Source of the DNA: Flammula alnicola | Taxonomy: Eukaryota > Basidiomycota > Agaricomycetes > Agaricales > Strophariaceae | Length of the DNA: 64,000 nt | Assembly (NCBI GenBank): GCA_015499995.1 | Contig: JADNRV010000006.1 | Span: forward strand, 124,001-188,000 | Reading direction: 5' to 3' | Part shown: positions 5,589 through 10,053 of the stretch, piece after piece | How the letters are laid out: every line of letters begins with the position of its first letter | How positions within the stretch are numbered: position 1 is the stretch's first letter | Notes under the pieces: generated by a model | Database searches by the model: none | Told to the model about the DNA's origin: nothing | What the model saw: the letters and a program-made list of their open reading frames with translations, nothing else | Made by a program: the position numbers and the translations under genes

Positions 5589-7780
5589 ATGAACGCCCCG
5601 GACGCGACCACCCAGCAAAGCGCGCCTCCTGCGAAACAAGCCAAACCACCACCCGCCGGGCCAGCGCCTCCGGCACCTGCCACTGCGCCTCCAGCTCCCC
5701 CAAACCACACTAATAGTGCGCCAGTATATCATTGTAGTTCCCCTCGAAGTTCTATTCACACCCGTTATCCCCTTGCACCAGATGTCAACGGTCATCACCC
5801 ACCCCCGCAAAATGGGAAGGGAAAGAAACGGAACGACGCCCCCATTGATCCTGCCACCATGTACGAGTCTCTCAAAAATCGAATAGCTGCGCTAGAAGAA
5901 GAAGAGGTGCTCGAGGAAGAAGAGGAAAGAAGATACGGCGAGTACAATTTTCAATGCCGCCTCACATCCGCGAAGTTGACGAACTTTCGCCTGTTTTCCA
6001 GCCGAGGAAGCTCAGAAATCGGTTAAGGGCTTGGAAGAGAATGCCATTCATAGCAAGTACATTGAATTGGTAAAACTACCCCAAGAATCATTCTTGAATG
6101 TGTTGCTAACATTGTGGCCACCACAGTTCGCTGAACTAAAACGAATGGAACGGGATCACGCCAAGGAGAAGCAGAAGTTGGTCAAGGACAAAGATGCAGG
6201 TACGTTCTCCCGTTCATGTCTTTCTGCTTATAGGCGTCATGTTAACAGACTTGACGATGATCAGCCAAGGGGCAGTTGACCAAAGCGAACCAGACGAAAA
6301 CTAAAATGGAGAACCTAGCTCGTGAACTCCAGAAAGTGCGGCAATAAACTCTCATAAATCTCAATCCATGTTATTTCTCATGACCTAACGCATATGAACT
6401 CCAGGACAACAAACGTCTGCGAGTACGCAAAATGTTTCGCCATTTTTAATTATTTGTGTTGATTCGTGGGTTATAGGAGGACGGGAAACGTTTGGCGCAA
6501 AGTGTGGAGGAAGCCCAAGAAGAGGCAAGAATTCCCAGACCATACCTGCTGCGGCGGATCACTGAACTTGACGTCTAGTTGATGCGCATGAAGAACGACT
6601 TTGCCAAACGCGCAGACAAGGCCAAGCAACAGGACGCAAAATACCGCGAAATGCCAGACATCGTGGTCAAGGTCATCTGTCGATACCGCGCTGAGTTGTT
6701 CTTCAAGATATCTCGGAAAACTAAACTTTCTCGCCTGATCAATTCATGGACGGAACGGATGGAACGGAACGGGGGAAAGGCGAGCGATGGAAAGGAGGGA
6801 GGCATGAATGGGTCGGCGAAGACGGATGCGGCGAGCACGCATTATTCTGGATCTACAGGCCCCAATTCCGGAATGCAATTCATCTTCACGTTCAACGGTC
6901 GGATGTTGGAGGCTGATCAGACACCGGAGGAAATTGGCATTGACGAGGGGGATGAGATCGTTGCTGTTGAGTTGATGGATTTGACAGAGAACGGTGGCGG
7001 TTCTGAAGAATGGGTGCGTATTTTTATGCTTGGCAACACGACTGATTTCTTAGGTTATTACAGGAAGAGCATGTGGAACCCCGTCGCGAGAAACTAAAAA
7101 AGAATTGGACAGACGACCCACAAGAGTACGATTCTACCCTCTTGCTTCGACCTGCCTAACATATTTAACAGAGCTAGGCGCACGGTAGAGGAGATTTTCG
7201 ACGGCGTGTAGGACCGGTTTTCACTAATAAACTGATTTTTACTGACGTACTCTTTCTCTTCTACAAAGCATCCGCGAGCGCTTGAAAGAGGTCCTCCGAC
7301 AATACGAGCTTCGCGAACGCCATTTTGAGTGCGTTATCCGTTCGAAGGAGCTCGAGGTCCTCCTGTCCCGAGCGCGTGCGGCAGAGCAGAAACAACTGGC
7401 AGAGGGCGAGAAAAATCGATCAAGTAAACAGGAGGAAGAGGTCTGCATCCATTCAATGCCTCTCCATGACCCCTCTGTTCTGAGTGTCGACCTCTAGAAT
7501 CGCCAGCTGAGGAAAGACCTTGAGGATGCACAAAATGGGCAAACGATGTTGATCGACAAGCTGATCACTTGCTGTAAAGAGGTATGTACTAACTCTCAAT
7601 CATGTCCCAGCCACTCTGAGCAAATTGTATTCACATACTAATTTTTCTGCTAAATTGCAGATCATTCAGAAACCAAATGCTGAGCGAACACAGCGGCTCT
7701 TCGCATCCCTTCGGGAAGAACTGGAGAGAAAAGGGCCTCGGGCTGCCAAGAAGCCTGTCGATGGGCCTGTGGGCGGATGA
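5589..7780 (+). CDS. Taxilin-family coiled-coil protein with an inserted SUMO-like domain
   Basis: Taxilins are cytosolic coiled-coil proteins that bind syntaxins and nascent polypeptide-associated complex. The N-terminus (ATG 5589) is Pro/Ala-rich. It is followed by taxilin coiled coil: MYESLKNRIAALEEEE, ELKRMERDHAKEKQKLVKDK, KMENLARELQKDNKRL. The C-terminal part is also taxilin: IRERLKEVLRQYELRERHF, SKELEVLLSRARAAEQKQ, then MLIDKLITCCKEIIQKPNAE, ending VGG (TGA 7778-7780). Between them, exon 6579-7013 (435 nt, phase 0 on both sides) encodes a ubiquitin-like fold of SUMO type: IVVKV, AELFFKISRKTKLSRLINSW, a low-complexity linker, then MQFIFTFNGRMLEADQTPEE and DEGDEIVAVELMDL, with NGGGSEE after the last strand. 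The upstream intron appears to use a GC donor (gcaaga). The 7201 intron uses a GTAGGA donor, giving FDGVIRERL in frame. Taxilin identity is strong. I know of no taxilin with a SUMO-like domain, so the fusion is an inference from continuous splice phase and lacks transcript support. Confidence 0.78.
6579..7013 (+). other. Symmetric exon encoding a SUMO/Rad60-like ubiquitin fold
   Basis: This single exon encodes 145 residues and starts and ends in phase 0. About 25 coiled-coil residues (MKNDFAKRADKAKQQDAKYR) precede the SUMO-like fold. Diagnostic features are FFKI on the second strand, the RLINSW helix region, the ADQTPEEIG turn and GDEIVAVEL on the last strand. An acidic NGGGSEEW tail follows, with a Gly-Gly pair but no free C-terminus. 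Confidence 0.72.
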
Positions 7781-8063: not shown

Positions 8064-9578
8064 CTAATTCCTCAACCCCTTCGACCAATCCGACTTGACG
8101 AAAACCTTGCCTTTCACACTTTCGAGCCCCTCGCCAGCGTAGCTAACAAGCGGAGAAATTTCGATTTCAACGCCGTCCTTGACTTGCGCTCCCGAGTAAG
8201 TCAAAAACCTCTTGTGTTGGGCAAGAAGGTCACGGCGACTCGTCTCGGGGTCATCAGAACCTGTGCCTGGCGCATTCTTCAAAGGACTGAACTCCTCGTT
8301 TCTCTCCACCTCCAAAACAGCAAAGCGTTCGGTGTGGGGGAAGACATCGAAGACGAACATCTCGAGCTTCATTCCGTTAGGCTTGCTTGGCTTTACGGAT
8401 TCGCCAGATTCCAGATCGACATGGGGGATTTTTTTGCGGGCGATGTGGAAGGCGAGGTCGTCCTCGAATGATTCGACGCGGTGCAGGTAGGTGGTGGTGT
8501 AGAAGTGATTGACAATGTTGCCTGCACGGAAGGTCAATTCGCCGGTTTCTGGATCGCGCCGCTCGGCTTGTTCCTTTGAGATTTCAGAATACTCGACGAC
8601 GCTGTACTTGTTCCCTCGGCAAGCGACCACTCCGACGGATTCAGTTGGGTACGACTTGGGCACGACTTTCGTAGCGCAATCGGCTTGCTTTTGAATGCTG
8701 TATCCGAGGAAGACGGGTCTGCGACGCGAACAAGGCAGTTATCCACGCAATAGGCATGGACGTAAAGGATTCCGCGCTTGGCGAGATCGGAGAGCACGGT
8801 GTCGCTCTTGCCAGGGTACAAAGGGGAACGAGTTGCGGCGTAGAGACCGCCGTTGCCATCCGGGGCTACGGCCACTCTCGATTGCGTCTCAAGCAAGACC
8901 TTGCCTTCCATTGTAAGGCAGGGCAATGTCCCTATGCCTAACATCAAGATCCTGCCAACTTGAAATCATAAATATATGCGCACCTTGTTCAAAGAATATG
9001 ACATTTTTTGGATCCAGACCGAAGTAAGAGTTCTTCTTGAAGAAATCCTCCGTGTCCCGACGCGTTGGACCGCTTGTCATGACATACCACGGGATGACGA
9101 CGGATCCGGCGGGCTTCGAGTTTTCGATCTCGGCAACTGTTTGCAAACGTGCGATGCGCTCAGCCTGGTATTGGAACAAGGATTTGTGCGATGGAAGGCC
9201 GATGTCGTAGCATCCTTTAGGCGCACTGCTCCCCAGCCTCGTTCCCTGCCCGCCGGCCATCAGCAACACCCCGACCTCGCCTCGGGCAATCGCCTCCAGG
9301 CCAGTTTGACGCCATGCCTTCGTCTTTGCAGCATCTGTAACGGACTCGGATGCGCCTTTTGGAAGGGGTTCTATAGAATCTGTTTGTGCGCTGGGATGGA
9401 GAGCTTCCGCTTCTGAAGAGACCGCTTTGGCGTAAATGCGGTTGACGCGCTCGATGTTGAGTGCTTCCAGTTGGGTCTTCAGCTCTTCCTGCTCGGCGGC
9501 GGAGAGCTTGGACCAGAATTTGAAGAGATGGCCTTGACCAGCGGCCTCGTAACGTTTGCGAAGATTATCGATGGACAT
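8064..9578 (-). CDS. UAP1: UDP-N-acetylglucosamine pyrophosphorylase
   Basis: Makes UDP-GlcNAc from UTP and GlcNAc-1-phosphate in the cytosol, the donor for chitin, N-glycans and GPI anchors. The N-terminus is [15 protein letters not shown] (ATG 9576-9578). The nucleotidyltransferase signature [20 protein letters not shown] follows at about residue 105, then [34 protein letters not shown] and AGNIVNHFY. The end is [12 protein letters not shown], about the normal family length. One intron (about 8947-8992, GTGCGC...TTAG) restores [17 protein letters not shown]. At 8715-8717 (GGG on the plus strand) the frame slips. The minus strand reads VRVADP and then, one base out, [17 protein letters not shown]. 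Adding one C gives the family sequence, so this is most likely a homopolymer undercount in an essential gene and not a true pseudogene. Confidence 0.92.
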
Positions 9579-9639
9579 GATGGTTGCAACTTGCAAGAAC
9601 GTGCTTGGTGGATGGCCATTGGCAGAGCCCCGAGGCGGG

Positions 9640-10053
9640 GTGTTTTAGGGTTCGGCCATTGCCGTACCTGCATAATGAACAGCTGCGGGCAAGCCTGTGC
9701 TTGCACCGCAACCACTTCGCAGCCCGTTGTTAGCGACGACCAAGGCTTGCGCCGCTTCAGCGAGAAACGGGTACAAGATGAAAGATACAGCCCTCCTTTC
9801 TGGCTGATCCTTCTTCCGAGGTTTCACCGCTGCATGTCCTTCCAATTTTCGAACACTGCGATACTTACCGGTACCGTCAGCGAGATCAAAAATAATACGT
9901 CTTCCAACTTGCTGGCAATTTCGTTTGTGATGCGCCACGGGCTTCATAATATGTCCGACGACCCCGACGACCTTCGTCCATTTCTATCATCCGGGGCTCA
10001 CGCGGAAGCGTTTGTCTTGAAAATGGTGTTTTGCTCTCACTCATGACGGAAAT
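9640..10053 (-). CDS. Doubtful uncharacterised gene upstream of UAP1
   Basis: On the minus strand an ATG at 10051-10053 opens MSESKTPFSRQTLPREPR. In another frame there is WTKVVGVVGHIMKPV followed by GRRIIFDLADGTG and a GGTAAG donor, a pattern loosely like an OB-fold protein. Downstream is an Ala-rich stretch ending GTAMAEP. The frames do not join cleanly, and I could not find a family. It could be a short diverged gene broken by base deletions or chance open frames. Another short open frame (10313-10513, minus, MLQLSQSLPAGMPAFSEKQG) lies upstream and could be a separate or earlier exon. Confidence 0.25.

Follow-up and report, generated by a model that had tools for sequence, protein, structure and literature searches.

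Alpha-taxilin of animals is reported to have syntaxins, SNX4 and the nascent polypeptide-associated complex (NAC) as partners (PMC3972091), and the RENi family is defined by two SUMO-like domains at the C terminus (PMC2946365). On the SUMO side, five positions of the groove have been mutated in SUMO2/3 (PMC12077520), Smt3 contacts Ubc9 through the Asp D68 and, as a second contact, E90 (PMC8636563), and the counterpart residues of Rad60 and Esc2 are required for Ubc9 binding (PMC7891725). Here we analyze a stretch of 64,000 nucleotides from the agaric Flammula alnicola (contig JADNRV010000006.1, positions 124,001 to 188,000, forward strand; hereafter the window), in which a gene at 5589-7780 encodes a taxilin with an internal SUMO-like domain. 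Its gene structure, predicted fold, conservation and distribution among the matches listed, as well as the loss of the GG and of the acidic residue for Ubc9, were established by computation. The reading that we favor, at a probability of about 0.55, is that the domain is part of the ordinary mRNA and gives a coiled-coil scaffold a permanent SUMO surface, on which proteins with SUMO-interacting motifs (SIMs) would dock with no conjugation or protease step.

The gene was rebuilt manually with orthologue comparison and consists of 13 exons on the plus strand, the 489-residue spliced product of which aligns without gaps to Galerina marginata P0122. The whole product scores 75.2 bits against Pfam Taxilin (PF09728; cut-off 30.3) and 37.1 bits against Pfam Rad60-SLD (cut-off 23.8). 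A preliminary description of this DNA had read a SUMO/Rad60-type fold from an exon with taxilin blocks on both sides, 435 nt long, in phase 0 at both ends and preceded by an intron with a GC donor, and all of these points are borne out. The frame of exon 8 holds no stop codon. A wrong joining of taxilin and SUMO gene models, or a misassembled locus, might be suspected from the TAG at 7210, where the SUMO-carrying open frame seems to end, and from database models that appear over-joined (P0242, P0261). However, this TAG lies within intron 10 (donor GTAGGA at 7208), removal of which places the SUMO-like domain in frame with the second taxilin coil via exons 9 and 10, and the reading phases are consistent across all 13 exons. 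The coil-SUMO-coil order moreover recurs in 141 listed proteins, and 14 proteins with a longest contig below 4 kb hold it uninterrupted, implying spliced RNA; such an artefact is hardly credible. The reading of exons 8-10, with the stop at 7210, as a SUMO gene of its own inside a taxilin intron was likewise dropped, given the GTAGGA donor and the P0122 alignment.

Scanned as a fragment that stops with exon 7, the first block matches Taxilin up to profile position 103, and the match of the second block spans positions 102-212 of 302. By this comparison the SUMO-like domain is an insertion within the taxilin rod, at an approximate site, as the first block was ended artificially at exon 7 and the whole-protein scan shows the second block only. 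The profile is not covered over its full length, the best stretch stopping at 212/302, and the C-terminal part of the taxilins of Morchella and two other ascomycetes is without counterpart in the mushroom protein, which, judged by its alignments, is a shortened taxilin variant. One place in this genome scores above the taxilin family cut-off, and no ordinary taxilin was seen beside it. A PDB search for relatives of the second coil gave 14-3-3 eta alone, at E 0.4-0.51, and no useful lead.

Structure prediction, proposed as a check in the preliminary description, returned a SUMO beta-grasp fold and narrowed the core to the interval given in Table 1; the first 25 codons of exon 8 (6579-6653) are coil, upstream of the core. 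Alignments place the domain nearer to the genome's own SUMO (25/76 aligned) than to a Rad60-type frame of the same genome (12/64). It is not the SUMO precursor of the genome, a possibility that was dropped in view of a separate SUMO gene with GG-SH on C577. That gene (L019, G000:C577) was read from base 443 as five exons ending in QVGG-SH, and a place with the same scores on C191 is perhaps its other haplotype.

A query without the SUMO part, which admits proteins of ~197-626 residues, matched 313 proteins, and both SUMO halves are present in all 120 of those listed. A second, lengthened query, admitting proteins of ~511-1627 residues that share exact words, matched 48 proteins; 45 carry the fusion and the remaining three are ascomycete taxilins (Morchella, Geoglossum, Phylliscum). 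In the two lists pooled, 141 of the 144 distinct proteins contain both coils and both SUMO halves, including Pleurotus P0191, which has no precomputed Rad60-SLD label and was counted from the BLAST match of both halves. The orthologue search suggested in the preliminary description thus upholds the fusion that it had proposed. Carriers among the matches of the lengthened query include Clavulina (Cantharellales), Clathrus (Phallales), Tulasnella, an Auriculariales species and the Dacrymycete Dacryopinax. On this evidence the fusion, the form that the taxilin gene of this genome takes, is common to Agaricomycetes and extends to at least one Dacrymycete; if inherited by descent, it dates back at least to the split between the Agaricomycetes and Dacrymycetes. 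No match from Tremellomycetes, Ustilaginomycotina or Pucciniomycotina was obtained with the lengthened query, a weak negative given the sizes and exact words that this query admits.

Several lines of evidence bear on whether the exon is present in the mature message. Fifteen of the 120 listed matches of the SUMO-less query come from lgn or jgi sources only, and all 15 read coil, SUMO, coil; the longest contig is below 4 kb for 14 of them and 8.8 kb for one. Because such an uninterrupted frame would be broken by twelve introns in the unspliced gene of the window, we infer that the 14 short-contig proteins derive from spliced RNA with the exon included. Three proteins of the lgn/jgi type (P0004, P0013 and P0033) read from the exon on into an intron. 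The preliminary description had suggested that splicing toggles the domain, the 435-nt exon being skipped in some transcripts to yield an ordinary taxilin, and the symmetric phase of the exon and the GC donor before it would permit this. Yet among the matches listed (120 of 313 for the SUMO-less query) a direct coil-to-coil join, with no domain in between, is confined to the three ascomycete taxilins, despite a size range that would have admitted a skipped form, and skipping would also delete 25 coil residues while retaining the linker. Nor is the GC donor of intron 7 (6525-6578, GCAAGA) the only one of this gene, intron 2 (5938-6001) having GCGAGT. We consider the toggle improbable.

Conservation was assessed in an alignment of 109 of the 120 listed matches of the SUMO-less query, 11 shorter or near-duplicate ones being left out. 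A further alignment combined 48 of 120 listed matches of another search (349 in total), 11 proteins from the SUMO-less and lengthened queries, and the exon of the window. Over the 109 orthologues, with gaps scored as differences, the mean pairwise identity is 0.884 and 0.763 for the SUMO halves and 0.856 and 0.825 for the taxilin coils (residues 63-187 and 351-420), so that by this measure the domain is about as conserved as its host protein. Values are lower for the coil segment within exon 8 (0.657), the C-terminal end (0.635), the tail linker (0.513) and the variable loop (0.290). A GG occurs in the tail columns of just 14/109 orthologues, and processing by a SUMO protease is thus, as far as the alignment tells, not a conserved feature. 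The window itself carries GGG, after which the chain continues into coil; cleavage of its NGGGSEE tail, a question raised in the preliminary description, is unlikely, as is conjugation or release in the usual way.

Position 293 is D or E in 0/109 orthologues, in a column that aligns with an Asp of plant SUMO and an Asp of the genome's own SUMO, which retains it at the place of the Ubc9 contact. This Asp is presumably Smt3 D68, and D68 and the Rad60 and Esc2 residues presumably occupy one equivalent place. Ubc9 is probably not bound through the usual SUMO backside contact. At the putative place of the second Ubc9 contact (Smt3 E90), position 315 if read ungapped, the residue is L in 85, V in 17, I in 3, M in 2 and Y in 2 of the 109, and the alignment with the genome's own SUMO opens a gap there. 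The loss of the Asp bears on a role like that of the second SUMO-like domain of Rad60, Esc2 and NIP45, in which the domain would recruit Ubc9 to raise local sumoylation. The common Pfam family (Rad60-SLD) and an acidic run, DEGDE, close to the last strand speak for such a role, but with the Ubc9-binding acidic residue missing throughout and the domain nearer to SUMO than to the Rad60-type frame, it is even less probable than the splicing toggle.

Three of the five SUMO2/3 groove positions are kept (F229 in 109/109, I231 in 108/109 and R233 in 109/109 orthologues). Further kept residues are K230 (108/109), W244 (109/109) and R247 (109/109), all three of which we take to line the groove. A single weak SIM-like match, LEVL at residue 393, lies outside the domain. 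According to the docking model, the SUMO-like domain would sit between the two taxilin coils in the normal mRNA product, a coiled-coil scaffold with a constant SUMO surface. This surface would most likely bind SIM proteins and bring them to the partners of taxilin (syntaxins, SNX4 and NAC, if the animal roles are retained), with no conjugation or protease step and probably without the usual Ubc9 backside contact. Some observations weigh against it. Substitutions affect two of the five groove positions, 228 from Gln to Phe (F or Y) and 232 from Lys to Ser (S or G), and SIM affinity may therefore be low or special; the groove residues could also be conserved for packing on the coil rather than for partners. 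The whole-protein AlphaFold2 (AF2) model has a predicted template modelling score (pTM) of 0.32 and does not fix the placement of the domain on the rod, and no work on fungal taxilin function was found in the titles and abstract openings searched.

The strongest competitor, which we still hold to be unlikely, is a structural spacer or a dimerization element of the rod, with a SUMO fold kept for stability and no role in the SUMO pathway. The insertion in mid-coil, the loss of the Ubc9 contact, the unconserved GG and the two altered groove positions would all fit, and residue invariance cannot tell packing from partner binding; on the other hand, the near invariance of K230 and R233 on the groove side goes beyond what a spacer would appear to need. 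More tentative than the docking model, and less likely than not, is an evolutionary extension of it, in which the ancestor of the Agaricomycetes and Dacrymycetes acquired a copy of SUMO within the taxilin rod, the last third of taxilin was lost, and the permanently "sumoylated" scaffold brings SIM proteins together at membranes or ribosomes without any cycle of conjugation. If true, SUMO proteases would be unable to turn this SUMO signal off, and mushroom-forming fungi would have relied on the scaffold ever since.

Table 1. Features of the taxilin-SUMO gene, in window coordinates
Feature	Position	Strand	Remark
Exon 1	5589..5715	+	Start codon at 5589, Pro-rich N terminus; gapless P0122 alignment of the spliced model
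Exon 2	5782..5937	+	Followed by GC-AG intron 5938-6001
Exons 3-7, first taxilin coiled coil	6002-6069, 6127-6199, 6265-6335, 6405-6422, 6477-6524	+	Pfam Taxilin, spliced model
Intron 7, GC-AG	6525..6578	+	Directly 5' of the SUMO exon
Exon 8	6579..7013	+	435 nt, phase 0/0; 25 coil codons, SUMO-like domain, linker start
SUMO-like beta-grasp core (predicted)	6654..6986	+	Residues 213-323; variable loop ~6768-6872 within
Exon 9, linker returning to coil	7064..7125	+	Best Pfam Taxilin stretch starts at residue 330
Exon 10	7172..7207	+	Apparent stop 7210 lies inside the next intron
Exons 11-13, second taxilin coil and stop codon	7269-7440, 7498-7581, 7661-7780	+	Pfam Taxilin

Exon 6 is only 18 nt long and encodes DNKRLR. 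Adjoining the taxilin gene, in convergent orientation, is a UDP-N-acetylglucosamine pyrophosphorylase-like gene (8064-9644, minus strand; Pfam UDPGP). In Phellinidium pouzarii a single gene model (P0261) merges the taxilin with this pyrophosphorylase, and the two are thus neighbors there too, apparently in tandem. In the Mycena citricolor model P0242 the taxilin-SUMO protein is fused to a segment that bears the name listerin E3 ligase, probably through an annotation merge, and the listerin-named segment had no match in the window at E 1e-4.

The domain architecture is real, old and widely shared. The statement in the preliminary description that no such fusion had been described agrees with our literature search, in which titles and abstract openings yielded no account of it; NCBI and UniRef, however, already contain gene models that combine the two Pfam domains. 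These entries are mostly hypothetical or 'ubiquitin-like domain-containing', and one Psilocybe cubensis fusion protein is entered as 'Small ubiquitin-related modifier 1'. A fusion found across a large fungal group and conserved about as well as its host points to an unstudied link of SUMO-type recognition to membrane traffic or nascent-chain handling, and offers a natural experiment on the action of a SUMO surface in the absence of conjugation. With a single taxilin place in this genome and orthologues in the databases, laboratory mushrooms could be used straight away.

Compared with known systems, the protein resembles the taxilin family (PF09728; alpha-, beta- and gamma-taxilin and the ascomycete P0263-P0265) in its two coiled-coil blocks with common motifs such as RELQKxNK and QYELRExHF, and differs in the SUMO-like domain between the blocks and in having no match to the C-terminal part of the ascomycete taxilins (beyond ~212/302 of the Pfam profile). 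With SUMO itself (Smt3, SUMO1-3, plant SUMO) it has in common the predicted beta-grasp fold and, of the five SIM-groove positions compared, three, whereas the domain is internal to a larger protein, lacks a conserved GG, has lost the acidic Ubc9 contact and carries a variable loop of 23-63 residues in place of the short turn of SUMO. Like the RENi proteins (Rad60, Esc2, NIP45), it holds a SUMO-like domain within a larger protein; unlike them, it has one internal domain, flanked by taxilin coils and devoid of the key Ubc9 residue.
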